A DNA stretch of 64,000 nucleotides. Origin: Rubricella aquisinus (lineage in GTDB: Bacteria > Pseudomonadota > Alphaproteobacteria > Rhodobacterales > Rhodobacteraceae). Under the pieces are notes generated by a model, which saw only the letters and a list, made by a program, of their open reading frames with translations, was not told the origin of the DNA and made no database searches. Shown piece by piece: positions 46,735 through 64,000 of this stretch. The stretch lies in contig NZ_JACIJS010000005.1 in the NCBI RefSeq assembly GCF_014199445.1, forward strand, positions 124,001 to 188,000. Reading direction: 5' to 3'. A program made the position numbers and the translations under genes. Positions within the stretch are counted from its first letter, which is position 1. Each line of letters opens with the position of its first letter.

Positions 46735-48576
46735 TCAATACTTCGCTTGTTTGCGGCGCAGGCCATGCAGGGTCGCGCAGGCATCCACCGCCTGTTTCAG
46801 CGTGGTGATCCCCTGTCGGTCCAACAGCGGCAACAGCTTGAGAAACACCTCCGCCGTGGCGACCGCATCGCCCAGCGCAGTGTGGCGCAGCGCCTCGGGG
46901 ATGGTCACGTCCAGCCGCGTCGCCAACCCGTCGAGCGTATGATCCGCCTCATGCGGGAACGCCAGCGCGGATAGAAGAACCGTGTCGAGCACCACCGCAT
47001 CCGCCCGCGCCCCGGCTTGCGCCAGAAACGCCATGTCAAAGGGCGCGTTATGGGCGATCCAGACGGCCCCTTCAGCGTAATGCTCAAATGCCGCCACAAC
47101 CTCTGCCGCATCGGGTGCATGGGCGACACCGGCGTCAGACAGGCCGTGTATCTTGGTCGCGGCAGGCGGGATCGGGCGCCCCGGATTGACCAGCCGGTCA
47201 AACACGTCACCCGGTTGGATGCGCCCGTTCACGATGCGCTGCCCGGCAATCTGCACCAAGCGATCCCCGCCCGACGGCGACAGACCCGTGGTTTCGGTGT
47301 CAAACACCACATAGGTCAAATCGGCCAGCGCCTCCCGCCCCACATCGGGATGTGTCATGAGATCGAAATCATAGAATTCCGGGCGGGCCTCGGGCGCTGT
47401 CGCGGCCCCTGCCCCGGTTTGCAAAAGCGGTAGGTTGAGGGACACATGCCCATCCTCGGAGCGGATGCGCAAGCCATGCGCGCTCAGCACATCCGCGACG
47501 GACGGGGCACCATGGGCGGCCTTGAGCTGTGCTGCACGCCATGCCGCAAGCGCCGCATCATCCAAGGCCGGACCGTCCCAAGACAGGTGCAAAGCGTCCT
47601 GTGACACACGCACGCCGATGTCGCCCGTCGCGGTGTCAGCCACATGGCTCACCAATCGCGCGACCAGCCGGATCATCGCCACGCCATCGGCGCACAGAAC
47701 GGCCCGCGCGCCGTCTGATCCACGCAGGCGAAACGCGGTGTCCGATGGCAGCGCACGGGCCACGACCTCGATCAGCGTGTCGGTGGTGAACACCTCCCGC
47801 GCGGTGGCGTCCTCCGTGCTGCCCGCCACGCGATCGGTGATGTTGCGCAGCGCAAGCGTATAGCCCTGCGCCTCCTGCCCATCACGCAACAGGGTCATGC
47901 GACCTGTAAGCACCCGCCCGCCCGCCTGTGTCGCCAGCATCAGATCAAGATGCGGCATCCGCCCGCCCTGCCCGTGGAGCACCGCAAGCGCATCCTCCAG
48001 CGTCTCCCGATACAAAAGCGTGGTGATATCGCGATCGAGCCCAACTTGCCCCTCCGGCGCAAGGAGCCGTTCCGCCTCCCTGTTCATCAGGGTAATGCGG
48101 TGGCGTGTCGTGGCGACGATCACCGCATCGGCTAGGCTTTGCAGCACAAGGCCCAGGGTTTCACGCTGTCCGGCAAGCCGCGCGGTTTCACGGGTCAGGC
48201 GCTCCTGCTCCGCCTCCCGCCGTTCCGCGAGGACACGCGCGACCTCCCCCACGGCAGGGGTGATGTCACCAAGGTATTTGCCAAGCTCCAGATCGACGCT
48301 GCCATCGGCAACCCCGCGCGCGCGCAACGTGAGGGCAGAGGCCAGTCGCTCCAGCGGGCGGGCGACATTCTCGTCAAACATGAGCCACACCCAGGCCGTG
48401 ATCCCTGCCACACCCACGATCCCCACAACCGCGGGCATCACAAAGGGCGCGCCATAGCCCGTGCGCACCATCCCCCACCACGCGCCCCCAATAATGACCG
48501 CCGCACTGCCCAGCACGATCAGCGCGAAAAACAGCGCCATCCGCAGCCGCAGGGGCCATGGGTGCCGCGTGGCCAT
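46735..48576 (-). CDS. Membrane PAS/pseudokinase protein fused to DnaQ-like 3'-5' exonuclease
   Basis: The 613-residue protein has, in order, two membrane helices (about 11-37 and 43-66), a HAMP-like and coiled stretch (~67-145), and a PAS-like region (~145-245). Next is a segment resembling a histidine-kinase ATPase domain but lacking the N, G1 and G2 boxes (~260-385). A DEDDh exonuclease follows, with FDTETTG (D426, E428), NAPFD (D514) and H565/D570. No phospho-accepting His was found. It is last in a run containing acs and actP. A role in acetate sensing is inferred from location; the target of the exonuclease is unknown. Confidence 0.85.
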   Translation of the reverse strand: MATRHPWPLRLRMALFFALIVLGSAAVIIGGAWWGMVRTGYGAPFVMPAVVGIVGVAGITAWVWLMFDENVARPLERLASALTLRARGVADGSVDLELGKYLGDITPAVGEVARVLAERREAEQERLTRETARLAGQRETLGLVLQSLADAVIVATTRHRITLMNREAERLLAPEGQVGLDRDITTLLYRETLEDALAVLHGQGGRMPHLDLMLATQAGGRVLTGRMTLLRDGQEAQGYTLALRNITDRVAGSTEDATAREVFTTDTLIEVVARALPSDTAFRLRGSDGARAVLCADGVAMIRLVARLVSHVADTATGDIGVRVSQDALHLSWDGPALDDAALAAWRAAQLKAAHGAPSVADVLSAHGLRIRSEDGHVSLNLPLLQTGAGAATAPEARPEFYDFDLMTHPDVGREALADLTYVVFDTETTGLSPSGGDRLVQIAGQRIVNGRIQPGDVFDRLVNPGRPIPPAATKIHGLSDAGVAHAPDAAEVVAAFEHYAEGAVWIAHNAPFDMAFLAQAGARADAVVLDTVLLSALAFPHEADHTLDGLATRLDVTIPEALRHTALGDAVATAEVFLKLLPLLDRQGITTLKQAVDACATLHGLRRKQAKY

Positions 48577-48579
48577 GCC

Positions 48580-49098
48580 TTAGCCCTCACACACGGGGGG
48601 CAGGATCGGGTCATCGGCGGCCATTGGGATCCAAGCGGCCCCTTGCGGGCGGCCATCCGCGCCAAAGGTCACACCCGGTCCGGCATCGGCGCGCGCGGGG
48701 GCCGCGCAATCAATGAACACCGGGCGCGCGCGGGGCGCGGTGAACCGCTCCATCAGGATGAGGGTGACAAGCGCCATGTCAGGCACCGCCTCGTTGCGCT
48801 GGATGCTGCTTATGTCCACGGCAAGCATCCGGGCCTGATAGGGCGCGGCCTTGGTCCACGGCTTCCACCAGACCGACGTTTCGTATTGGGCCACGACCTG
48901 AAATTCGCTTGGGAGCGCGTTCGCGGTGCGGTCCGCCCATGTGTATTCCGACCAGATCGTAAAGGCGATCATCGCGGCCCCTGCCGCCACAGGCACCGCC
49001 CATTTCGGCAAGCGACGACCGGTGAACCGGTTGACGATCATCACCACGCCTCCGGCGGCAACAGCAGCGACAACAGCAGCAACAAGTTCGTAAAACAT
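48580..49098 (-). CDS. Small membrane protein in acetate locus
   Basis: The 172-residue protein has two N-terminal membrane helices (about 3-21 and 33-49), then a soluble part with YETSVWWKPWTKAAPYQARM and two cysteines (one near the C-terminus, VCEG). No family is recognised. It sits between the DUF294 gene (3-base gap) and the exonuclease fusion gene (3-base gap), so it belongs to that operon. Confidence 0.7.
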   Translation of the reverse strand: MFYELVAAVVAAVAAGGVVMIVNRFTGRRLPKWAVPVAAGAAMIAFTIWSEYTWADRTANALPSEFQVVAQYETSVWWKPWTKAAPYQARMLAVDISSIQRNEAVPDMALVTLILMERFTAPRARPVFIDCAAPARADAGPGVTFGADGRPQGAAWIPMAADDPILPPVCEG

Positions 49099-49101
49099 GG
49101 T

Positions 49102-50919
49102 TTATCCCAGCATGGCGCGGCCCTGACCCAGGGCCGATTGCATTGTTTTGACTACCACGAACGCATCGCGCAGGTGGGAGCGTTCAAGGTCGGACAGGGT
49201 GGCGGGCTCCAGATAATTGCCCGGTGCCTCCCCCGCTTTGATCTGTTTGGCCTGATGCGCGAGGCGCACCTCCGCGATCAGGTCATAGGCATCCAAAAGG
49301 TCCCGCCCACCGGACGGGCTGATGATACGGTCCTCTACCGCACGTTCAAGTCGCGCGCGGGTGTTGACCTCTGGCATCCGGCCCATCAGCGCATAGACGC
49401 GCGCAAGGTCCACCACCGGCACAACGCCGTTATGTTTAAGGTCAATGGCCCGCCGATGCTCCCCAGAGCGGATCGTGGCAAACCCACGAAACAGGCCCAG
49501 CGGCGTTGTGTGCTTGAGCGCGTTTGACACGAGATGGGAGAGGAAGATCGAATTTTGCGCGGCCTGCTCCAACACCTCCGCCTGAAGGCTGTCAAACAAC
49601 TCCACCGCGCCCCCGATGGGCCGCAGATCGAACATGACAGAGGCGAGCATCTGCGCCTCTGGCCCCGGCTCCGCGATCCAGCGGGCGAAGTAGTCGCGCC
49701 AGACGCGCCGGGGCTGCCGCCAGCGATCCGCCGTCGCCATCATGTCCCCGGGGCAATAGAAATAGCCAACCCGGTCGAGCCCGTCCGACACAAACTGCGC
49801 GAGGGCCTTGAAATAAGCGTCATGCTCAGGCTTGGCCGCGTCATCAAGGATCAGGCAATTGTCCTGATCAGACACGCCGGTCTGCTCCCGCCGTCCTTGG
49901 GAGCCGCAAGCGAGCCAAAGGTATGGCACTGGCGGGGTGCCGAGTTTTGCCTCTGCGAGCGTGAGCAGCCGCCGGGTCGCCGCATCCGCGATATCGGTGA
50001 TCTGGCGCGTGACCATATCGTGCCGCTCTGCCCCGGTGAGGCTGGCCAGAAGCGGCCGGATCTCCACAACGGACGAAACCATGCCAGCCGCATCTGCCGC
50101 GCGGGCGATCCGACCCGCCAACCCAGCCGACGATAGGCTTTGCGCCGCGATAAGATCGGTCTGCGTGACGATCCCCACAATCCGGCCTTTGCGCGAAATC
50201 GGCACATGGGAGATGTGCCGCTCCGTCATCAGGGTCAGCGCATCGCGGCCAAAATCCGTCTCCGGCAGGGTCAGCGGATCGGGGGTCATCACCGCGACAA
50301 GCGGGGTGTTGGCCGCGCGGTCCTCGGCGATCACACGGGCGGTCAGATCGCGGGTGGTGAGGATGCCTTGCACCTTTGCGGGCGTGCCGACGAGCACGCA
50401 GGAAATCCGCGCCTCCGCCATGTGGCGCGCGGCGGCGCGCACGGTTGTCTCGGGCGGCAGGGTCACGGGATCGGGCGTCATCAGATCGGAAAGCGGCAGG
50501 CTGCCCGGTCCTTTCGGGGCGGCGACACGGGCGCGGCCCCGCTCAAAGAAGCGCGCGAATGGTCCGGCTTCGGCCATGAGCGTGTGAAACATCGGGGCGG
50601 GCAGCACGAACAGCCGGGTCCGCTCCGTCGCGCGCGCGCCGGTGCGCGCCGCCCCGTCCCGCAACAGCCCCCGCTCGCCGAAACTGTTGCCCGGGCCAAG
50701 CTCTGACAGGACCGTGCCATCGGCATCAGTGATCTCCACCCCGCCCTCATGGATCAGATACAGCCCGTCCAAGGGCGCGCCAAAGCGGTATATCTCATCC
50801 CCTGCCGGGATGATCCGCTGGTCCAGCACGCCAATGACGCCTGCGCGGGTGTCCTCCTCCAGCGCGTCATAGGGGTGATGGGAGCCAAGAAACCGGCTGA
50901 TGGCGGCATGGTCGATCAT
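49102..50919 (-). CDS. cNMP-binding / CBS / DUF294 nucleotidyltransferase-like protein
   Basis: The 605-residue protein has an N-terminal cyclic-nucleotide-binding-like domain (~15-125), two CBS domains (~145-260) and a DUF294 nucleotidyltransferase domain. The NTase motif is CGSQGRREQTGVSDQD, with acidic pair D351/D353. A helical C-terminal domain (DUF294_C) follows. These families respond to nucleotides, and the last resembles GlnD/GlnE-type protein nucleotidyltransferases. In other bacteria such genes also lie beside actP. The start at 50919 gives MIDHAAISRFL and fits the domain boundaries. Substrate unknown. Confidence 0.87.
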   Translation of the reverse strand: MIDHAAISRFLGSHHPYDALEEDTRAGVIGVLDQRIIPAGDEIYRFGAPLDGLYLIHEGGVEITDADGTVLSELGPGNSFGERGLLRDGAARTGARATERTRLFVLPAPMFHTLMAEAGPFARFFERGRARVAAPKGPGSLPLSDLMTPDPVTLPPETTVRAAARHMAEARISCVLVGTPAKVQGILTTRDLTARVIAEDRAANTPLVAVMTPDPLTLPETDFGRDALTLMTERHISHVPISRKGRIVGIVTQTDLIAAQSLSSAGLAGRIARAADAAGMVSSVVEIRPLLASLTGAERHDMVTRQITDIADAATRRLLTLAEAKLGTPPVPYLWLACGSQGRREQTGVSDQDNCLILDDAAKPEHDAYFKALAQFVSDGLDRVGYFYCPGDMMATADRWRQPRRVWRDYFARWIAEPGPEAQMLASVMFDLRPIGGAVELFDSLQAEVLEQAAQNSIFLSHLVSNALKHTTPLGLFRGFATIRSGEHRRAIDLKHNGVVPVVDLARVYALMGRMPEVNTRARLERAVEDRIISPSGGRDLLDAYDLIAEVRLAHQAKQIKAGEAPGNYLEPATLSDLERSHLRDAFVVVKTMQSALGQGRAMLG

Positions 50920-51028
50920 GGGCGCGGTCTCCGGTCCGGGTTCAGAAGGAAAAGGCGCACCCACCTTAGGGGCGGATGCGCAAGTCGGCCAGCCGCGCGC
51001 GAGGGGCGACGCGGCTGGACAGGGAAGT

Positions 51029-52828
51029 TCAGTGGCCTTCGACAGCCGCACCTGCGCCACGGGGGACACGGATGCCTTCGATCAGGTCTTGGATCTCCTG
51101 CGGCGGCGCTTTCGTCATGCTGCTGACGACATAGGCCGTAACGAAGTTCAAGAGAGCCCCAATCGCGCCAAAGGACGTGGATTGCACCGTCAGGAACAGC
51201 GGATCAGCATCCGTGAAGCTGTTGGTGTCCGGGATGAAGAACCAGCCCTTGTGGAGGAAGATGTAGAGGAGCGTCACGACAAGGCCCACCAGCATCCCCG
51301 CAACCGCACCGGTGTTGTTCACCTTCTTGGAGAAGATGCCCATCATCAGCGCAGGGAAGATCGAGGCTGCCGCCAGACCAAAGGCCAGCGCCACCGTCTG
51401 TGCCGCAAATCCCGGCGGGTTGAGGCCAAGGATCACGGCCACCACGATCGCGGCGACCATGGACAGGCGTGCCGCCATCAGCTCCGACTTTTCCGACATG
51501 TTCGGCGTGAGTTGCCCTTTGAGAAGGTCATGGCTCACCGCAGAACTGATCGCCAGCAAAAGACCCGCCGCCGTGGACAGCGCCGCCGCAAGGCCACCTG
51601 CCGCGACAAGGCCAATCACCCAGCCGGGAAGGTTCGCGATCTCAGGGTTGGCAAGCACGAGGATGTCACGGTTGAAGTTGGTCAACTCATTGCCCGCCCA
51701 GCCATTCGCCGCTGCCAAATCCTGCATCTCAGGGTTGGCATCGTTGTAGTACTGGATGCGGCCATCACCGTTTTTGTCTTCCCAGCCAAGAAGGCCGGTT
51801 TTCTGCCACGTCGCCATCCAGTCATAGCGCGGATCGTTCTCGATCTGCTCCACGGAGACCGCGTCGCCGGTCACACCATTGGGCCACATCATCTCAGAGA
51901 TGTTGAGGCGGGCCATGGCACCAACCGCAGGCGCGGTGAGGTACAAAAGCGCAATGAACACCAGCGTCCAGCCCGCAGACCAGCGCGCGTCAGACACCTT
52001 GGGAACGGTGAAGAAGCGCATGATGACATGCGGCAGACCCGCGGTCCCGATCATCAGGGACAGGGTGAACAGCACCATGTTGAGCGTGTCAGCGTGATGG
52101 GTGGTGTATTGGTTAAAGCCAAGATCGGTCACGATCTGATCAAGCTTTTCCAACAGGTACACGCCAGAGGCCACGCCATCGGGTTGATACTCGCTAAACA
52201 GGCCAAGACCCGGGATCGGGTTGCCGGTCAGTTGGAGAGAGATGAAGATCGCGGGGATCGTGTACGCGGTGATCAGAACGCAATACTGCGCCACCTGCGT
52301 GTAGGTCACGCCCTTCATCCCGCCAAACACGGCATAGGCGAACACGACACAGGCGCCGATCAGGAGGCCCCAGAACGCATCAATCTCAAGGAAGCGACCA
52401 AAGGCGATGCCGACCCCCTGCATTTGACCGATCACATAGGTGATGGAGGCCACAAGCAGACAGATAACGGCAACCATACGCGCCGTGGGGGAATAAAAGC
52501 GGCTGCCGATGAATTCGGACACGGTGAACGCGCCAAATTTGCGCAAGTAAGGGGCAAGCAGCAGCGCCAAAAGCACATAGCCCCCCGTCCAGCCCATCAG
52601 GAAGGTGGAATTGTCATAGCCGGTAAAGGCGATGAGACCAGCCATGGAGATAAAGGACGCAGCAGACATCCAGTCTGCAGCCGTCGCCATCCCGTTGGTC
52701 ACAGGGTGAACACCCCGGCCAGCAGCATAGAATTCAGCGGTAGAGCCCGCACGGGCCCAAATTGCGATGCCGATATAGAGCGCAAAGGACGCGCCCACAA
52801 ACAGCAGGTTGATGGTAAACTGATCCAT
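51029..52828 (-). CDS. actP: Cation/acetate symporter (SSS family)
   Basis: The 599-residue sodium:solute symporter has about 13 membrane segments, with the family motifs MATAADWMSAASFISMAGL and LTYVIGQMQGVGIAFGR-like sequences near the middle. It takes up acetate or other short monocarboxylates. DUF4212, whose genes accompany this transporter, lies 5 bases upstream; acs and adk follow further upstream. The sequence near residues 300-370 has a long acidic loop (NGDGRIQYYNDANPE) that looks calcium-binding. Confidence 0.9.
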   Translation of the reverse strand: MDQFTINLLFVGASFALYIGIAIWARAGSTAEFYAAGRGVHPVTNGMATAADWMSAASFISMAGLIAFTGYDNSTFLMGWTGGYVLLALLLAPYLRKFGAFTVSEFIGSRFYSPTARMVAVICLLVASITYVIGQMQGVGIAFGRFLEIDAFWGLLIGACVVFAYAVFGGMKGVTYTQVAQYCVLITAYTIPAIFISLQLTGNPIPGLGLFSEYQPDGVASGVYLLEKLDQIVTDLGFNQYTTHHADTLNMVLFTLSLMIGTAGLPHVIMRFFTVPKVSDARWSAGWTLVFIALLYLTAPAVGAMARLNISEMMWPNGVTGDAVSVEQIENDPRYDWMATWQKTGLLGWEDKNGDGRIQYYNDANPEMQDLAAANGWAGNELTNFNRDILVLANPEIANLPGWVIGLVAAGGLAAALSTAAGLLLAISSAVSHDLLKGQLTPNMSEKSELMAARLSMVAAIVVAVILGLNPPGFAAQTVALAFGLAAASIFPALMMGIFSKKVNNTGAVAGMLVGLVVTLLYIFLHKGWFFIPDTNSFTDADPLFLTVQSTSFGAIGALLNFVTAYVVSSMTKAPPQEIQDLIEGIRVPRGAGAAVEGH

Positions 52829-52833
52829 GGCGA

Positions 52834-53103
52834 TTATTCCTCGTCCACGCCGTATTCACGGTCGATCGCGTTCATGCGGAACGCATAGAAAAAGATGATG
52901 GCTAGAAACACGAGGATCGAGCCTTGCTGGGCGAACCAGAAGCCAAGATCCGTGCCACCGACGGAAATGCCCGCGAGCATGGGACGCAGCAGAATGCCAA
53001 ATCCGAACGAGCACACGGCCCAGATCACAAGCAGGATCGCGACCAGTCGGATATTGGCTTTCCAGTAGCCGCCTCCGTCCGTCACGTTGGGGTTCTTAGA
53101 CAT
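52834..53103 (-). CDS. DUF4212 small symporter-associated membrane protein
   Basis: The 89-residue protein has two membrane helices (about 20-42 and 52-72) and the ending RMNAIDREYGVDEE, as in DUF4212 subunits found with SSS-type acetate transporters. The start at 53103, preceded by AAGGGAG, gives MSKNPNVTDGGGYWKANIR. It probably forms part of the transport unit with ActP. Confidence 0.9.
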   Translation of the reverse strand: MSKNPNVTDGGGYWKANIRLVAILLVIWAVCSFGFGILLRPMLAGISVGGTDLGFWFAQQGSILVFLAIIFFYAFRMNAIDREYGVDEE

Positions 53104-53128
53104 TGGTTCACTCCCTTTCATTTGAATT

Positions 53129-53815
53129 TCAGGTATTTGTGGGATTGAGGGCCGCGATCATGGCGCCCGTCACATCATCAATCGCCGCCATCGCATCGAC
53201 GGGCCGCACGAGGCCCTTATCGGCGTAATAGGCGATCAGCGGCGCGGTTTCGGCGTGGTACGCCTTGAGCCGCTCTGCGACCGTCTCGGCGTTGTCGTCT
53301 GCGCGGCGGGTAAACTCGGTGCCACCGCACGTGTCGCAAATGCCTGCCGTTTCGGGCCGCTTTGCGGTGTCGTGATACCCTTCCCCGCAGCCCGCGCAGG
53401 TGGACCGGCCAGAGATGCGCGCGACCATCGCCGCGTCATCCACATCCATCGCAATCGCGGCAGTCAGTGTGAGGCCCTGCTCGGCAAGGATCACGTCCAA
53501 AGCCTGCGCTTGGCCGACCGTCCGGGGGAAGCCGTCGAAAATCACGCCTTTGGCCAGATCACCGGACGCAAGACGCTCCCGCACGATCGCGACGACAATC
53601 TCGTCAGAGACAAGATCGCCGGCCTCCATCACTGCTTTCGCGGCCAATCCGGCGGGGCTGCCCGCCTTGACGGCGGCGCGCAGCATGTCGCCGGTGGACA
53701 ACTGCACCAGCCCTTCGGCCTCAACCAGCCGGCGGGCCTGCGTGCCCTTACCCGCGCCCGGAGGCCCAAGCAGGATCACATTCGTCAGGGTTTGCGGGGT
53801 ATCTGCACCATCCAT
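53129..53815 (-). CDS. adk: Adenylate kinase
   Basis: The 228-residue enzyme interconverts ATP + AMP and 2 ADP. The P-loop is LLGPPGAGKGTQA near residues 15-27, followed by FDGFPRT. The lid has four cysteines that would bind zinc (CAGC and CDTC). It lies between acs (12 bases upstream) and DUF4212. ACS releases AMP and pyrophosphate, so an adenylate kinase here would recycle the AMP. Rhodobacteraceae usually carry another adk in the ribosomal-protein operon, so this may be a second copy. Confidence 0.95.
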   Translation of the reverse strand: MDGADTPQTLTNVILLGPPGAGKGTQARRLVEAEGLVQLSTGDMLRAAVKAGSPAGLAAKAVMEAGDLVSDEIVVAIVRERLASGDLAKGVIFDGFPRTVGQAQALDVILAEQGLTLTAAIAMDVDDAAMVARISGRSTCAGCGEGYHDTAKRPETAGICDTCGGTEFTRRADDNAETVAERLKAYHAETAPLIAYYADKGLVRPVDAMAAIDDVTGAMIAALNPTNT

Positions 53816-53827
53816 GATCCCGGCTCC

Positions 53828-55771
53828 TCAGGTGTTGCCGCGATTGGCGATGAGGTCATCCACGACCGACGGATCGGCAAGGGTCGATGTGTCCCCGAGT
53901 GCGCCGTAATCATCCTCCGCGATCTTGCGCAGGATACGGCGCATGATCTTGCCCGAGCGGGTCTTGGGCAGGCCGGGGGCGAATTGGATCACATCGGGCT
54001 TGGCAATCGGGCCGATCTCATGGCGGACCCATTTGACGAGGGCTGCGCGCAGCTCCTCCGACGGTGCCTCCCCGGTCATCAGGGTGACATAGCACCAGAT
54101 GCCCTGCCCTTTCAGATCATGCGGAAAGCCGACCACGGCGGCCTCCGACACGGCCTTATGAGCGACGAGCGCGCTTTCCACCTCTGCCGTGCCCATGCGG
54201 TGACCAGAGACGTTGATCACATCGTCCACGCGACCGGTGATCCAGTAATAGCCGTCGCTGTCACGGCGGCAGCCATCCCCGGTGAAGAAATAGCCTTTGT
54301 ATTGCGTGAAATAGGTATCGACGAAACGCGCGTGATCGCCCCAGATCGTGCGCGATTGACCGGGCCAGCTATCACCCATGGCAAGCACGCCTTCACATTC
54401 GGTCTGCGCGATCTCGTCGCCCGAATGGGGATCAAGCACCACGGGCTGCACGCCAAAGAAGGGGCGCGTCGCCGAACCGGGCTTTGTCGCCGTGGCACCG
54501 GGCAAGGGGGTGATGAGGATGCCGCCCGTCTCTGTCTGCCAGAAGGTATCGACGATGGGGCAATTCCCCTTGCCCACGACCTCATTATACCAGTTCCACG
54601 CCTCCGGGTTGATCGGCTCCCCGACGGAGCCCAGCACGCGAAGGGAGGACAGATCGGCGCTTTCCACGAAATCAGCCCCCAGCCCCATCAGCATACGGAT
54701 CGCAGTTGGCGCGGTGTAGAATTGGTTGACCTTGTGCTTTTCACAGACCTGCCAGAACCGCGACGCATCGGGATAATTCGGCACGCCCTCAAACATCACC
54801 GTGGTCGCCCCATTCGCCAGCGGGCCATAAACGATATAGCTGTGGCCCGTGACCCAGCCCACATCAGCGGTGCACCAATAAACGTCCCCTTCCTGATAAT
54901 CGAAGACGTATTGATGGGTCATCGCAGCATAAGTCAGGTAGCCGCCGGACGTATGGACCACGCCCTTTGGCTTACCTGTTGAGCCGGAGGTGTAGAGGAT
55001 GAACAGCGGATCTTCGGCGTTCATCTCCACGGGCGCGCAATGGGAGGACACGCGCTCGACCTCTTCGGCGTAAATGTAATCGCGCTCCGGGTTCATGGCG
55101 ACATCGCCGCCCGTCCGGTGCACCATGAGGCATTTCACATCCGCATCACATTTGCTGAGCGCCTCATCGACATTCTTTTTCAGCGGCGTCGCACGCCCAC
55201 CCCGGATCGCCTCATCGGCGGTCACCACAAGCTTGGCCCCCGATCCATTGATCCGGTCCGCCAGCGCATCTGCCGAAAAGCCCGCGAACACGATGGAATG
55301 AATGGCCCCGATCCGCGCGCAGGCAAGCATCGCATAGGCCGCCGCCGGGATCATCGGCAGGTAGAGCACAACGCGCTCCCCCTTTTTCACGCCAAGCGCA
55401 TGCAGGACATTCGCGAATTTCGACACCTGATCGTGCAGCTCGTTATAGGTGATGTGCTGCGCGATATTCGGATCATCGCTTTCCCAGATGATCGCCGTTT
55501 GCGTGCCGCGTGTTTCAAGATGGCGATCCACGCAATTGGCGCAGACATTCAGCGTGCCATCCTCAAACCATTTGATATCGACATTGTGGTGATCGAAGGA
55601 GGTGTTTTTGACCTTGGTATAGGGCTTGATCCAATCGAGCCGCTTGCCCGCCTCGCCCCAGAACGCCTCCGGATCCGCGATGGAGGCTGCGTACATCTCC
55701 TCATATTTCGCCTCATCAATGTGAGCGATCGAGGTGATCTCGGCTGAAGGCGGATGGGTGGCATCGAGCAT
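53828..55771 (-). CDS. acs: Acetate--CoA ligase (AMP-forming)
   Basis: The 647-residue enzyme activates acetate to acetyl-CoA with release of AMP and pyrophosphate. ATP motif: [12 protein letters not shown]; also [26 protein letters not shown], and the C-terminal catalytic lysine in TRSGKIMRR, often controlled by acetylation. The start at 55771 gives [14 protein letters not shown]. It leads a run with adk, DUF4212 and actP, so uptake, activation and AMP recycling are encoded together. The AT-rich 390-base gap upstream probably holds its promoter. Confidence 0.97.
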
Positions 55772-56162
55772 GGCGGTCTCCTTGCGGCGCTGTTTCCTCC
55801 GACCCGACACCGGATTGGTGGGGGTGGTCGTGATGGCAACATCTGAGGGTTGCTCACCGGATATTACGCCACGTCAGTAGGAGGCATCTTGATGCAAATC
55901 AACTCTAAAACGTATGTTTTTAAACAGTTTTTCTGTAAAGTATATGACGGGATACAATGGATTTTTGTAAATTTCCTTTCGCTATCAATTCCTCATTCAA
56001 ACGATTGAGCCAACAGGACAAGGAGATAAACACAAAGCAAAGTGTAAATTATTTGCGCCATCCGCGCCGGGCTGCGACACAACTCCGCAGCAAGATAATT
56101 TCGCCACTTCCGCGATGATGCGACAGAATCGAACCTGCCGCGCGTAGACTAAGAATCGCGGA
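55772..56162. other. 390-base gap upstream of acs: AT-rich regulatory region
   Basis: This is the longest non-coding gap in the window. It is noticeably AT-richer than its neighbours from about 55890 to 56050. It contains an imperfect dyad TTTAAACAG/CTGTAAA (55919-55939) and a small open frame with a strong ribosome-binding site (55892-56008). The rest is GC-rich sequence where I see no gene. The acs promoter is probably here; no firm -35/-10 pair could be set. Confidence 0.5.
55892..56008 (+). CDS. Possible 38-residue small protein in acs upstream region
   Basis: AGGAGG at 55879-55884 lies 7 bases before an ATG that opens a 38-codon frame. It encodes a hydrophobic, aromatic and lysine-rich peptide (MQINSKTYVFKQFFCKVYDG, then IQWIFVNFLS). 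Base use is much more AT-rich than in nearby genes, and the frame overlaps an operator-like dyad. It could be a leader or membrane micropeptide, or chance in an AT-rich promoter. Confidence 0.25.
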   Translation: MQINSKTYVFKQFFCKVYDGIQWIFVNFLSLSIPHSND

Positions 56163-58169: not shown

Positions 58170-58214
58170 GACTTCATGAGAGGGGGGGTAAGAGGGGGGT
58201 TACAACATGAAGTC
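58170..58214. repeat. 9-base inverted repeat around the giant gene's stop codon
   Basis: GACTTCATG (58170-58178) and CATGAAGTC (58206-58214) are perfect inverted copies. The loop has two runs of six or more G, and the repeat contains the stop codon at 58200-58202. In the mRNA this would give a hairpin with a C-rich loop ahead of the main terminator. Confidence 0.6.
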
Positions 58215-61200
58215 GAAGTCATCCATGGCGAGGTGATTGCCGCCACCCGGCGTGCCTGCATCAGTACCGCCATAGGGGCGGAACGTGACCTCGTCCACAT
58301 CGTCCCAACCGAAGGTAAACACGGTGGGCGCATCGTCGCTTACGATGACGGTCTCGGAATGCAACAGCACCCCATCGCGATACCCCATCACGTCGATGTT
58401 GAGGTTATCATTCCATGCCGCCGTCAGGGTGACACCGTTGAAGTCGAACTCATCGCCGTTGATGCCCGTGACCCGCATGGTCGAAGACGCATAGACGACA
58501 TAGTCACCCGAGGTGGTCCCACGCACATAACCGCTGTCCTGAATGCTGTAATTCGCGGAATTCAGGATCCACGCGTTGGACCAGTTGAGGCCAGCATATC
58601 CTGCCGGAATACCGGAGAAATTCTGCGTGGTGATATCGTCGAAGCTGCCCGGTGCGGGCCCCTCATTCGCACCATTCACCGTGATATCGACGGTTGCCGT
58701 TGTCACACCGCCATTGCCATCGCTCACGTCGATGGCAAAGCTTTCAATCGCGCTCTCGCCAGCATCCAGGGTGTCGAGCGCCGTTGCCGCATTGTCCAGA
58801 ATGTAGGTCCAGTTGCCCGATGTATCGACGTCCAGTCGACCATAGGTGCCCAAACCATTGGCCAAAGCGTAGCTCAGCGCATCGCCATCCACATCCGCCG
58901 CCGCAAGCGCGCCGCTCACCGTCAACGCACCATCCTCGGTGACGGAGCCAGCCCCGTCCGTGACCGTTGGCGCGTCATTGACCGGCAGCACTGTCACGTT
59001 GAACGCGGAGGTCGCCGTTTGTGCGCCGCCCTGCCCGGTGTTGCCGTTGTCATTGGCGACCACGGTGATCGTGTCTTCGCCGTTGAAATCGGCGTCTGGC
59101 GTGTAAACCAGTGCCTCAAGCGCGGCATTCACCGCCGCAAGCGAGCCTGTCACCGTCATGGTGGCGCCGCCCTCTCCTGTGATCCCGGTCAATCCAGCCA
59201 CATCTGTAGAGTTCAGCGTGCCGTTAGCCGCCGACACTTCGACCGTCATCAGCGCGTTTGCCCCGGCTTCGTCCAGATCGACGTCAGAAATAGCGAGCCC
59301 GTTGATTTCGAGCGACCGATCCTCATCCGTGATCAGCGCGCCTTCGACGTCAAAATTGACGATGCGGGCAAGCTGCTCAGACGTGAGATGGTTCAACGCA
59401 CCAGCCTCAAACTCCAACAAGTCGGAGATCGTGGTCGTCATCGTCGTCCGGTTGTATGACTGGGACGCGAATTGCAGCAGCGAAACGCTCTCCCCCGCCG
59501 CGATATCAAGCTGGAAGGAGTAGCTTACGCCATCCCTGCTCAGGCTGGACGCGGTCATCGATTCCGATCCTTCGCCATCCTGAATGAGGTGCAGCACCAT
59601 TGGATCACCCGCGCCACCCCAGTAGATGCCCACATCATCGGTCAGAAGATGGGTGTCATCCGTCGAGAAGGAGAGATCACCGCTTCCGGTTTCAACAACA
59701 CCAGTCCAGCCATCAGAACCAAGATTGGTGTAGTAGTTCACCGTGATGGTCTGCGCGGTCCCGGTGGTGTTGGTAAAGGTGTCAAAAACCCGCGCATATT
59801 CCTGATCCGTTGGCACCCATTGTTCGCGCACGAACTCGATGCCATTGGAGCTGGTCAAGGCGCTGGTTTGCAAATGCCGCCCATCCGCACTGCGGGTGAG
59901 AGAGGCATTTGACATGTATTGGCCATCAATCCGCACCTGATAGCTGCCGTCATAGGCATCATTGGTGCCGTTGATGAAGCCGCCGGACTGGTAGCTGTAG
60001 CTGTCCCAGATAAACCCGCCAGCGTCATCAACACGGGAATACGTCCCGACGGGAACCGTAAATTCAGGCGCAGCACCCTCGGCAGAATAACCGGTGGGCA
60101 CCGTGATCTCAGGCGCGTCGTTCACCGCAGCAACTTGAACCGTAAATGCGGAGGTCGCGGATTGAGCGCCGCCAGCACCGGAATTGCCATTGTCATTGGC
60201 AGTGACACGAATGGTGTCTTCACCGTTAAAGTCCTGATCGGGTGTGTATTCCAGACCGGCAAGGGCTGCGTTCACTGCCGAAACCGACCCTGTCAGGGTG
60301 ATCGTGGCAGTACCGTCACCAGCGTAGCCAGCAAGCCCGCTTGCATCCACGCCCAGCGTGCCATTGCCTGCATCCACCGTGACCGTCATCAGCGCCCCGG
60401 CGGTTTCGCCGATATCCACGTCTGCCACGGAGATGCCCTCAATCACAACAGAGGTATCTTCGTCCGTGCCGATCCGGCTGTCTGCCGGTGGTGCAACCGT
60501 CGCAACCTCCGCCAAGCCAGAGGCGTTGCGCACCATCACAACAAGATTGCCGTCAGGGCCAAGGTCAATGGATGGCATAGAGCCTTGCATGACGTAGATG
60601 GCATCGCCGTTATAGCTGCCATCGGCATTAAAGCTTTGCACATAGACACCCGCAGGCAGTGCCTCGCCCGTGACCGGGTCGGTGGTCGGGTAGCTGTTTA
60701 CGAAGGCCGCTGCAAAACCGCCATCCGCAAGAGGCTGAATGTCGGAAATCGAACGTACCCCCGCGCTGCGCGCAAAATCGGAGAGGGACGCTGTTTCGGA
60801 CACTTGCGTGCCTTGTGCATCGAAGATTTCAAAGAAACCCTCCCAAACTCCATTAGGCCGGGCCTCATAGGAGACAACGATATTTCCATTGGCAAGCTGC
60901 GTGATGCTTCCGTCAATGAAAAGGGCCTCACCGGAATTGGCCACGGTCACTGTTGACGTGATCGCACCGGTATCATCCAAAAGCATCAACTCAAGCGGAT
61001 AAACCGCGGTCCCGTACCCGGACAATAGCGCGTAACCGCCATCCGCCAGATCCGTGATTGCTGTGTTGTAGCCATAAACGAGGGGGCTGTTGAGGTCGAT
61101 CGGACCAAACTCGATATCGCCAGAGGCATCGAGCTTGACCAGCCGCTCATCGTAATTCGCGCCACCTTCCCACTGGTGATAGCTCAACATCACGCCGCCA

Positions 61201-64000
61201 TCGCGTGTCGCGGTCAGGCTGATGCTGTTGTCGACATATGAACTGTTAATGTTCTGCTCATTCAAGAGCGTGCCGTCATTGTCAAAGAACTGAACATTCG
61301 CGATCGCTCGGTTGGACGAATACGCGACCGCAAAACCGCCGCCCTCCAGTGCGACAACTGTGTGATCTGTCCCAGTGGCATCATCAAGGAAAACGGGCGT
61401 TTCCGTTCCATCGGGACTGACGATCGAAACGAATGTGCGCCCGCCATTATTGGCAAAATTCGACTGGTTCGACGTTACAACGATTGAGCCATTGTCGAGC
61501 GCCGCCACATCGCCCATCGCGCCACCATTGGTGTTGTCAATGACATGGGTGCGCAGCACCGTGGTCCCGATGACGCCCCCGTCAACCTGCTGGGGAAGCG
61601 GAACCGTGACCTCTGGACCATCATTCACCGCCGCAACCGTGAGCGTGATTGTGCCCGTATCCGTTTCGCCAAGGGCATCCACCACTTCATAGGTGAAGCT
61701 GTCGGTGCCGTTGAAATCCGCGTTCGGCGTGTAGGTGTAGCTGCCATCGGCGTTCAGCGACAGGCTGCCATTGGCCGGACCCGTCAAAACGCCATGGGTC
61801 AGCACATCGCCGCTGCCCAGATCAGGATCGGTGGTCGGCAGACTGCCTGACAGTGTGGTATCCTCATTCAGCGTTGCAGAGGCATCCTCTGCCACTGGCG
61901 GGCGGTTGTCCTCGGACCCGGTAATGGAAATGGTAAGGGTCGCAATATCCGTGCCACCATTGCCATCCGATACCTCGTAGGAGAACACATCAGTGACCAC
62001 CTCACCGGGGGCAAGCGCCTCGGTATCCGGGTCGCTGTCATCCAGAAGGTAGGTCCATGTGCCATCCGCCGCGAGTGTCAGCGCACCGTAGGTGCCCACG
62101 ATCGCCGCGCCGACATTCGCCGCGCTCAGAACACCTCCGTCGGATGCTGCGCGCGCCACCGACAACACGTCCGTCGCATCGACATCCGTGTCATTGGCAA
62201 GCACAGTGCCCGTCGCCGTGGCATCGCCCGCCTCTGTCGAGCCTTGCTCGATCACGGCATCACCAGCATTGCTGTCATTCGCAGCAACTGGTCCATCATT
62301 GGTGCCGGTGACGGTGATGGTCACGTCATTCGTTGCGGTCGCGCCATGGGCATCTGTCGCAGTAACCTGAACCGTCACGTTTCGCGTTTCCCCGACAGCG
62401 AGGTCTTGGAAATCAGAGCCGGGATCAAAGCTGAGCGTCGTGCCGGAAATCGCGGCGGAGCCTTCGCCCGGCGCGCTGGTGATGCTGTAGATCAGCGTCG
62501 TGCCATCGTCATCGCTGTCGATGTCATCCCCAAGGGCGGAGAGATCAACCGCAATAGCAGCCCCATCCTCCTCAGCCGAGGCCGCAGCCGCCGCCATGCT
62601 CGGCCCATCATTGGAGCCAGTGATGGTCACTGTCGCGGTTTCTGTCGCCAAACCGCCATTTCCATCGTCAACGGTATACGTAAAGCTGTCGGTCGTGGTC
62701 TCCCCTTCCGCCAACCCTTCAAACTGGCCATTCGCATCATACTCGAACGTGCCGTCGCCATTATCGGTGACACTGCCCACCGTTCCGGTGGTGTCGATGC
62801 TGATCGTGTGGGTGTCAGAGGCGTCAACGTCGGAATAGACCGCTGTGAGGGTCACAGTATCGGTCCCTGCCGTCGGGGTCACCTCAGCCGTGACACCGTC
62901 GAGCTGGAGACTGCTCCAGACAAAATCAATGCCGGACAGGCTGAAGGTCACATCCGCCGTGCCCGCCGATGTGGCGGACGCCGGGACCGTGAGCGTGATA
63001 TCAGTGTCGCTCGTCGCGTCCTCGAAAATGAAGTAATCAAGCCCGACAACCTGCCGGTCGCTCGTGGCCCCGGTATAGGTGCCGCCGATTTCAAATGCGC
63101 TTGAGGGCACCAATTCCGGCACACCGTCTGTCATCGAAATCACCGACAACTCAAAATCGTAATTGTTCGGATTGACGTTGAGGATCATGCCATTGGCAGG
63201 CACCCAAGCGGCAGAAACGATATTGGCAAAATCGAAGGTCGCCAGCGTATTGGGCACGACAGACATGGACTCGGTGTCGTAGTCGACCACATAGAAATAG
63301 TTGGAATTGGGAATGTTCGCAGCACCGGCAGCCACGGAATAGCCGCTGCCATTCTCAGAAACAGCGCCGGAAATCGGCTGTGCGATCGGCGCATCATTGG
63401 TGCCGGTGACCGTGATCGTGACAGCATTGGTCGCAGTCGCGCCATGTGCGTCCGTTGCGGTGACCTCGATTGTCACATCGCGGGTTTCCCCAACGGCGAG
63501 ATCTTGGAAATCCGCGCCGGGATCAAAGCTGAGCGTGGTGCCAGAAATCGACGCCGCCCCCTCGCCAGGAGCGCCAGTGACCGCATAGGTCAGGCTGGCG
63601 CCATCGTCGTCGCTGTCCACATCCGCGCCAAGCGCGGAAAGATCAACTGACACCGCCCCACCGTCCTCAACGGCTGAGGTGGCAGCAGCCGAAAGGGTCG
63701 GCGCGTCATTCGTGCCAGTGACCGTCACAGTGACGGTATTGGTCGCGGTCGCACCATGCGCGTCCGTCGCGGTAACTTCCACCACGACATCGCGGGTTTC
63801 GCCCAAGGCGAGGTTCTGGAAATCAGCACCCGGATCGAAGGTCAGCGTCGTCCCACTGATCGCAGCCGAACCTTCTGCCGGTGCGCCTGTCACGCTGTAA
63901 GTCAGGCTGGCGCCATCATCGTCGCTGTCCACATCCGCGCCAAGCGCGGAAAGATCGACCGACACCGCCCCACCGTCCTCAACGGCTGAGGTGGCAGCAG
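58200..64000 (-). CDS. Giant cadherin/VCBS-type repeat protein, 3' part (start outside window)
   Basis: The frame is open from the window edge to a TAA at 58200, giving at least 1,930 residues. From the N-terminal side: two adjacent VCBS/cadherin-like repeats of 104 residues (TNDAPTLSAA, SALGADVDSDDDG), a distinct insert (VSENGSGYSVAAGAANIP), and another such repeat. Then come a VCBS unit with VLANDTDVDATD and a cadherin-like unit (NEDTTLSGSLPTTDPD). A long propeller-like region (about 60.5-61.6 kb), more repeats, an aromatic-rich insert (~59.4-60.1 kb) and a C-terminal beta domain ending HLAMDDFDFML follow. Calcium-binding D/N loops are frequent. The protein is probably a surface or secreted adhesin; the acidic, hydrophobic end fits a type I secretion signal. 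No transport genes are in view. Confidence 0.85.
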   Translation of the reverse strand, partial: AATSAVEDGGAVSVDLSALGADVDSDDDGASLTYSVTGAPAEGSAAISGTTLTFDPGADFQNLALGETRDVVVEVTATDAHGATATNTVTVTVTGTNDAPTLSAAATSAVEDGGAVSVDLSALGADVDSDDDGASLTYAVTGAPGEGAASISGTTLSFDPGADFQDLAVGETRDVTIEVTATDAHGATATNAVTITVTGTNDAPIAQPISGAVSENGSGYSVAAGAANIPNSNYFYVVDYDTESMSVVPNTLATFDFANIVSAAWVPANGMILNVNPNNYDFELSVISMTDGVPELVPSSAFEIGGTYTGATSDRQVVGLDYFIFEDATSDTDITLTVPASATSAGTADVTFSLSGIDFVWSSLQLDGVTAEVTPTAGTDTVTLTAVYSDVDASDTHTISIDTTGTVGSVTDNGDGTFEYDANGQFEGLAEGETTTDSFTYTVDDGNGGLATETATVTITGSNDGPSMAAAAASAEEDGAAIAVDLSALGDDIDSDDDGTTLIYSITSAPGEGSAAISGTTLSFDPGSDFQDLAVGETRNVTVQVTATDAHGATATNDVTITVTGTNDGPVAANDSNAGDAVIEQGSTEAGDATATGTVLANDTDVDATDVLSVARAASDGGVLSAANVGAAIVGTYGALTLAADGTWTYLLDDSDPDTEALAPGEVVTDVFSYEVSDGNGGTDIATLTISITGSEDNRPPVAEDASATLNEDTTLSGSLPTTDPDLGSGDVLTHGVLTGPANGSLSLNADGSYTYTPNADFNGTDSFTYEVVDALGETDTGTITLTVAAVNDGPEVTVPLPQQVDGGVIGTTVLRTHVIDNTNGGAMGDVAALDNGSIVVTSNQSNFANNGGRTFVSIVSPDGTETPVFLDDATGTDHTVVALEGGGFAVAYSSNRAIANVQFFDNDGTLLNEQNINSSYVDNSISLTATRDGGVMLSYHQWEGGANYDERLVKLDASGDIEFGPIDLNSPLVYGYNTAITDLADGGYALLSGYGTAVYPLELMLLDDTGAITSTVTVANSGEALFIDGSITQLANGNIVVSYEARPNGVWEGFFEIFDAQGTQVSETASLSDFARSAGVRSISDIQPLADGGFAAAFVNSYPTTDPVTGEALPAGVYVQSFNADGSYNGDAIYVMQGSMPSIDLGPDGNLVVMVRNASGLAEVATVAPPADSRIGTDEDTSVVIEGISVADVDIGETAGALMTVTVDAGNGTLGVDASGLAGYAGDGTATITLTGSVSAVNAALAGLEYTPDQDFNGEDTIRVTANDNGNSGAGGAQSATSAFTVQVAAVNDAPEITVPTGYSAEGAAPEFTVPVGTYSRVDDAGGFIWDSYSYQSGGFINGTNDAYDGSYQVRIDGQYMSNASLTRSADGRHLQTSALTSSNGIEFVREQWVPTDQEYARVFDTFTNTTGTAQTITVNYYTNLGSDGWTGVVETGSGDLSFSTDDTHLLTDDVGIYWGGAGDPMVLHLIQDGEGSESMTASSLSRDGVSYSFQLDIAAGESVSLLQFASQSYNRTTMTTTISDLLEFEAGALNHLTSEQLARIVNFDVEGALITDEDRSLEINGLAISDVDLDEAGANALMTVEVSAANGTLNSTDVAGLTGITGEGGATMTVTGSLAAVNAALEALVYTPDADFNGEDTITVVANDNGNTGQGGAQTATSAFNVTVLPVNDAPTVTDGAGSVTEDGALTVSGALAAADVDGDALSYALANGLGTYGRLDVDTSGNWTYILDNAATALDTLDAGESAIESFAIDVSDGNGGVTTATVDITVNGANEGPAPGSFDDITTQNFSGIPAGYAGLNWSNAWILNSANYSIQDSGYVRGTTSGDYVVYASSTMRVTGINGDEFDFNGVTLTAAWNDNLNIDVMGYRDGVLLHSETVIVSDDAPTVFTFGWDDVDEVTFRPYGGTDAGTPGGGNHLAMDDFDFML
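63391..64000 (-). repeat. 312-base tandem repeats in giant gene
   Basis: The same coding block recurs every 312 bases (104 codons). For example, the identical string encoding ATSAVEDGGAV appears at 63661-63688 and 63973-64000, and GCRTCATT at 63391 and 63703. The unit at 63661-63972 is complete; the array continues beyond the window edge. A more diverged copy lies near 62.3-62.6 kb. Confidence 0.85.

Follow-up and report, generated by a model that had tools for sequence, protein, structure and literature searches.

In Rubricella aquisinus, a gene designated EXO was found whose product is a putative membrane-tethered DEDDh 3′-5′ exonuclease carried on a kinase-dead transmitter. Judged from an alignment with its relatives, the transmitter is kinase-dead throughout the family and has conserved residues of its own. 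The gene lies in a 64,000-bp stretch (positions 124,001 to 188,000 of contig NZ_JACIJS010000005.1), referred to here as the window. There is precedent for kinase-dead transmitters, for single-domain REC partners and for DEDDh nucleases individually. In the titles and abstract starts of the open-licence literature, a scope that leaves subscription papers outside, no description of their combination or of a transmitter-nuclease fusion was found, and no open-licence paper was found that brings together a pseudokinase, a histidine kinase, an exonuclease and a PAS domain.

Domain organization and operon of EXO

The EXO frame is uninterrupted by stops, and its coordinates (Table 1) were correct in the initial annotation, in which the strand was absent. 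From the N-terminus, a pair of membrane helices is followed by a PAS-like domain, a predicted HATPase (CA) fold and a DEDDh exonuclease. The two hydrophobic stretches, detected by the Kyte-Doolittle method in 19-residue windows with values of at least 1.6, support the previous reading of EXO as a membrane protein. The PAS match in EXO (residues 144–188, E 0.0037) reached 17.7 bits against the Pfam cut-off of 22.6, and in the relative L041 the PAS match was above the cut-off (E 5e-8, 33.4 bits).

Table 1. Position of EXO, its parts and the neighbouring genes in the window
Feature	Position	Strand	Basis
EXO (membrane-bound pseudo-histidine-kinase/exonuclease), 613 aa	46735..48576	minus	ORF and Pfam
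EXO hydrophobic (membrane) stretch 1, residues about 8–37	48466..48555	minus	Kyte-Doolittle
EXO hydrophobic (membrane) stretch 2, residues about 41–68	48373..48456	minus	Kyte-Doolittle
EXO PAS-like domain, about residues 144–245	47842..48147	minus	Pfam, sub-threshold
EXO CA-like domain (predicted HATPase fold), catalytic boxes lost, residues 252–388	47413..47823	minus	hhalign, AlphaFold2, Foldseek, VIA
EXO DEDDh exonuclease (RNase_T), residues 423–578	46843..47310	minus	Pfam E 2.4e-28, PDB chains, motifs
tm172, 172-aa protein without known family	48580..49098	minus	homologue in 39/39 loci
cNMP-binding/CBS/DUF294 nucleotidyltransferase-like protein	49102..51069	minus	Pfam; 39/39 loci
VC_2705-family sodium/solute symporter	51029..52828	minus	TIGR03648, 814.8 bits vs 320.75; 39/39 loci
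DUF4212 protein	52834..53121	minus	38/39 loci
Adenylate kinase (adk)	53129..53815	minus	33/39 loci
Acetyl-CoA synthetase (acs)	53828..55810	minus	36/39 loci

The exonuclease domain was matched by RNase_T with 100.2 bits (Pfam cut-off 24) and by a second Pfam nuclease model with E 0.00023. All five catalytic residues, D-E-D-D-H, are present in EXO. Among 90 proteins, EXO counted and L033 left out (its gene is cut by a contig end), 87 passed the motif pattern and the remaining 3 were intact by eye, confirming the earlier statement that the nuclease motifs are intact; in L167, the motif reads FDCEMTG with its residues intact. Of the NCBIfam models, TIGR00573, which describes a broad subfamily, was passed with 85.9 bits against 71.5, and the equivalog models listed scored far under their cut-offs. 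The PDB matches include DEDDh nucleases of the DnaQ/PolC type, namely epsilon (2gui, E 1.7e-16), PolC (2p1j, 2.7e-16) and ExoX (4fzx, 3.3e-11), as well as DinG chains. In contrast to the DnaQ/PolC type, the EXO nuclease stands outside a polymerase and is joined to membrane, PAS and transmitter parts. In L104, L107, L109 and L111, an exonuclease of this type was seen fused to a many-helix membrane protein instead; this partner presumably resembles an EamA/DMT transporter.

EXO is the last gene of a minus-strand operon with the order acs, adk, DUF4212, symporter, cNMP-CBS-DUF294, tm172 and EXO. The core gene order was kept on one strand in 38 of the 39 family loci with EXO; some loci in the neighbour count stop short at the end of a contig or region, and L082, having no EXO, was left out. 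The tm172 protein, with no Pfam match under E 0.5 and no NCBIfam match, is encoded directly upstream of EXO, at the place taken by a REC gene in relatives. The presence of adk inside the acs operon could serve to recycle the AMP made by Acs. DUF294-like genes were also observed within about 8 kb of EXO where the acs operon is missing, at about 903 in L176, 13299 in L177 and 14830 in L178.

Fold and catalytic residues of the kinase-like middle

The segment that had been likened to the C-terminus of a kinase ATPase corresponds to EXO residues 361–385. Pfam gave no match of HisKA or HATPase_c in EXO at E<=1; of 42 DHp-CA segments from relatives, 8 were matched by HisKA (best E 2.4e-4) and none by HATPase_c. 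Three alignments were compared as profiles by hhalign: A1, EXO residues 246–402 together with the corresponding part of 58 long relatives; A2, the 42 relatives carrying the DHp part; and A3, 16 kinase cores from EXO's own genome, which were 16 of the first 17 kinase-like sequences with a clean frame among 24 matches of a PF02518 search. Over 200 columns each, A1 and A2 were aligned to A3 with hhalign probabilities of 97.0 and 97.1, respectively, compared with 1.16 and 0.82 for a reversed A3 and 1.15 and 0.95 for the best of 30 column shuffles. Since the controls stayed at about 1, the likeness is more than chance. Taken by half, the CA part alone gave 90.4 and the DHp part alone 86.3. The value of 97 is a property of the family profile, and the EXO sequence alone does not carry this score.

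An AlphaFold2 model of EXO residues 246–402 had a mean pLDDT of 81 and a pTM of 0.73, with the first 11 or so residues below 50. The PDB matches listed by Foldseek for this model were histidine kinases or related GHKL structures, the best among them having an E value of 3.4e-5; over the 50 matches listed, the fit was only 0.46–0.58 in TM and 3.7–7.0 Å in rmsd. Comparison by VIA gave Z 12.8 with 6lgq_C (3.4 Å over 138 residues) and Z 12.2 with 1ys3_B (2.8 Å over 124 residues). For L041, the model including the DHp part (pLDDT 90.6) showed two long helices followed by a CA domain, and it matched HK853 with a Foldseek E value of 1.9e-12. Its best VIA match had Z 15.0 and 2.7 Å over the CA part alone; the large rmsd in its Foldseek matches is due to DHp and CA being at a different angle. 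The predicted fold of the EXO middle is that of a HATPase/CA domain, and the HATPase-like middle proposed from the sequence in the initial annotation was upheld by the model.

Alignment of EXO with the 58 long relatives showed that the catalytic residues are lost. At the phospho-His column, 57 of the 59 proteins have a residue and none has His (Asp 28, Glu 19, others 10). The first N-box Asn is found in 0/59 and the second in 3/59; the G1 Asp is found in 0/59, with Trp at that column in 52/59, and of the two G1 Gly columns, the first is kept in 57/59 and the second in 1/59. In EXO itself, the phospho-His column is a gap, the two N-box Asn are replaced by Arg and His and the G1 Asp by Trp; the first G1 Gly is retained, and Ala stands in place of the second. 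The G2 motif GxGLG, present in all 16 genuine kinases, was not found in EXO, and the two matches to the pattern among the 59 proteins (GSGL in L006 and GLGL in L020) fall in the DHp-CA linker stretch, off the G2 site. In the 16 kinases of the same genome, the columns of phospho-His, both N-box Asn, G1 Asp and G1 Gly are invariant. The column counts agree with the former observation that the N, G1 and G2 boxes and the phospho-His are missing.

None of the 58 relatives is an intact kinase, because phospho-His, the first N-box Asn and the G1 Asp are absent from all of them. Of the two outcomes named in the initial annotation as refuting its reading, an unrelated fold and orthologues with an intact kinase, neither was obtained. 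The degenerate kinase recognized in EXO is thus real but not peculiar to it, being common to these relatives; the trait specific to EXO is the absence of the DHp hairpin, a loss that the initial annotation had merged with that of the boxes. Other non-catalytic residues are conserved, including a Trp past G1 (54/59) and an Arg in the former H-box (51/59), and conserved replacement residues at the former boxes argue against free decay.

An active kinase was ruled out, the catalytic columns being empty in every aligned row, and so was an accident specific to EXO as regards the boxes, which are lost in all 58 relatives. The phosphatase motif of DHp domains is HExxT/N. That the dead DHp serves as a two-component phosphatase was ruled out because the residues after the lost His do not fit this motif, position +4 being Arg in 32/59 and the next residue Arg or Gly in 40/59.

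DHp hairpin, REC genes and neighbouring kinases

Matches to EXO residues 1–400 were obtained in 179 of 199 family genomes. Eighty-six of them, EXO included, stood out with E 1.9e-18 or better and the rest were weak, one of these (L082) being a different protein at a locus without EXO. The sample was made up of the 86 strong family loci, named contigs, and loci from a search at class level; there, 387 genomes yielded 30 loci, of which only those with the PAS part were used. Left out before counting were the EXO duplicates L001, L003 and L102, the DnaQ-type gene L002, L082, and L163 and L174, which have the same sequences as L035 and L112. By profile, the 114 distinct genes were divided into 55 with a full DHp hairpin, 8 that keep the CA part and have the hairpin only as a stub or not at all (EXO, L004, L005, L007, L009, L012, L035 and L162), and 51 with neither. 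EXO, in which the DHp profile scored 0.1 bits and the hairpin is absent, is alone in keeping the CA part with the hairpin wholly gone, its genus being represented by its own genome only; the other seven keep a stub.

A gene for a single-domain REC protein was found upstream of 52 of the 55 full-hairpin genes. None was found for the genes without a full hairpin (0/8 for those with the CA part and 0/51 for those with neither, 0/59 in all), some PAS-exonuclease rows having less than 1000 bases upstream and four (L097, L099, L103 and L106) lying outside the acs operon type. The 1000 bases upstream of EXO contain no REC gene. L039, L044 and L088 have a full hairpin and no REC gene upstream or elsewhere in those loci. 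In 44 of 49 loci, the REC stop lies between a 20-base overlap and 146 bases from the EXO start of the relative; the other five distances come from misplaced EXO starts, the start codons having been chosen by script. Both the phospho-Asp and the Lys were present in 49/49 of the aligned REC proteins.

Fisher's test of the association between REC and hairpin gave p 2.6e-29, ignoring relatedness. The exonuclease tree, which had 114 rows with one gene twice (L105 = L173) and L167 left out, showed 10 state changes for the hairpin, 12 for REC and 6 for the CA part. Four independent pairs were available on well-supported branches (median p 0.125); on average, REC changed the same way in 3.7 of the 4, and never the opposite way. 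The co-loss of REC and hairpin is consistent but not statistically proven, with only four such pairs, and it is not significant after correction for relatedness.

The 172-aa gene is missing from thirteen long loci of the class-level or contig sets (L036, L041, L043, L085–L090 and L092–L095; L044 excluded), and so are the acs-operon neighbours, as seen in wide context for 7 loci and in 1.5-kb flanks for the other 6. In 12 of the 13, a kinase gene lies directly downstream on the same strand, encoding about 910–930 aa where complete; in L088, for which locus L178 was also used, the kinase gene is convergent. The L041 kinase has HisKA (1.5e-21) and HATPase_c (3e-29) behind a hydrophobic N-terminal half, and in most of the short loci the identity of the kinase was judged by its N-terminal part. 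Those beside REC and EXO are kinases that we take to be of the SLC5/STAC type. Like SLC5/STAC kinases (CrbS/MxtR), the neighbour kinase has a long hydrophobic N-terminal half, HisKA and HATPase_c; here it is a protein separate from EXO. SSF was not reached in these kinases by Pfam at E<=0.001 or 0.05, and the symporter of the EXO operon gave weak tblastn matches to three kinase loci (E 2.6e-7 to 2.1e-5).

Kinases of this sort occur in 176 of the 199 family genomes, including that of EXO. Where EXO is in the acs operon, the kinase is encoded elsewhere in the genome, as on contig C3 of the EXO organism, where locus L183 (C3:216500-225500) has on one strand the genes for an ScfR-type (short-chain fatty acyl-CoA) regulator, a single-domain REC protein and a symporter-like kinase with HisKA and HATPase_c. 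In 4/4 family loci examined, a REC gene adjoins the kinase irrespective of the hairpin in EXO; the kinase thus need not serve the REC of EXO, and the link between the two is weaker.

Possible modes of action

The frequent REC neighbour of the full-length relatives suggests a switch directly controlling the nuclease. As a whole explanation, we tentatively favour, at a little short of an even chance, a dead transmitter that acts as a receiver for REC and gates the nuclease. The single-domain REC would be phosphorylated by the symporter-like (SLC5-type) histidine kinase and would then dock on the DHp hairpin of the kinase-dead transmitter; the altered DHp/CA arrangement, together with PAS, might open or close the nuclease, and a nutrient signal would act on nucleic acids with no transcription factor involved. 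Besides the predicted fold and the lost catalytic residues, this explanation is favoured by the REC genes upstream of full-hairpin genes, by the invariant phospho-Asp and Lys of the REC proteins and by the downstream kinase gene in 12/13 loci. In the EXO organism, control of the nuclease would fall to the PAS and CA parts alone, or the nuclease would be always on, since the hairpin and the operon REC gene are both missing. A two-component pathway with a nuclease output, of which the CA-like domain alone is left as regulator in this organism, is a somewhat doubtful reading, although a possible one.

A dead transmitter turned receiver, for which DivL and DivK are a precedent, is the best-fitting mechanism. 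According to excerpts of the source, DivL of Caulobacter binds phosphorylated DivK and has no kinase or phosphatase activity (PMC4211667). Like the EXO family, DivL is described in excerpts as a transmitter core without kinase chemistry, with PAS in front (PMC4211667, PMC9491836). Its partner, DivK, is a single-domain REC, and the full-hairpin relatives likewise appear with a REC gene, unlike EXO. The DivL chain 4q20 was among the fold matches of the EXO model (E 1.5e-4) and the L041 model (4.1e-11). EXO differs from DivL in its C-terminal nuclease output, the lost N and G boxes and the missing hairpin, and the binding of REC is what we infer here.

The 51 relatives that lack the transmitter altogether indicate that it is dispensable for the task of the nuclease; this speaks against the favoured explanation, as do the three full-hairpin genes without REC and the lack of a REC gene at EXO. 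It is conceivable, but unlikely, that the nuclease acts without the transmitter and that DHp and CA persist by history, above all in EXO. The repeated changes of hairpin and CA part on the exonuclease tree (10 and 6) and the 51 of 114 genes without both speak for such a vestige, as does a free-standing protein of Pseudomonas putida, PP_0353, which, unlike EXO, presumably has no sensor half. This RNase_T protein belongs to the MxtR/ErdR regulon, and in the excerpts consulted, its deletion impaired growth on pyruvate and left growth on acetate and succinate unaffected (PMC9927547). Its gene, like EXO, is downstream of a CBS-protein gene (pp_0354), and its homologues adjoin actP/yjcH in P. aeruginosa, a tie to acetate and pyruvate resembling that of the EXO operon, as far as the same excerpts go (PMC9927547). 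A vestige is opposed by the conservation of non-catalytic residues where the boxes used to be, by the open frame of ordinary length and the folded model of EXO, and by the retention of REC beside 52/55 full-hairpin genes.

Pairing of the dead transmitter with the symporter-like kinase is improbable. In such a heterodimer, the output of the kinase would be altered in a RetS/GacS-like manner, with the nuclease as a second effector and REC as the common partner. The kinase gene directly downstream in 12/13 loci without acs-operon neighbours fits this arrangement, RetS is among the Foldseek matches of the EXO model, and heterodimers of this kind are on record in excerpts of PMC9491836; however, where EXO belongs to the acs operon the kinase gene has another location (C3 in the EXO organism), and the DHp parts of the two families are about 17% identical in the profile alignment, which disfavours mixing. 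We give equally little credence to a CA-like pocket that reads a small molecule (e.g. adenylate or acyl-CoA) and controls the nuclease without REC: EXO and 7 other genes have the CA part without full hairpin or REC, and the acs/adk operon makes and uses AMP, but every nucleotide-binding box is altered in the 59-row alignment.

If the favoured mechanism, a dead transmitter receiving REC, is true, the dead kinase would be a receiver, and two-component signalling would act directly on RNA or DNA at the membrane, with no transcription factor in between. It would also yield a definite hypothesis about PP_0353, the so far unexplained nuclease of acetate/pyruvate operons. The relatives form a natural series, from full hairpin with REC, through truncated hairpin without REC and CA only (EXO), to PAS and nuclease only, which is a ready set for judging which parts are needed.

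Elsewhere in the window, positions 58200-63965 of the minus strand contain a 1921-aa frame rich in Ig/cadherin-like repeats (Big_9, Cadherin_4 and Cadherin_5).
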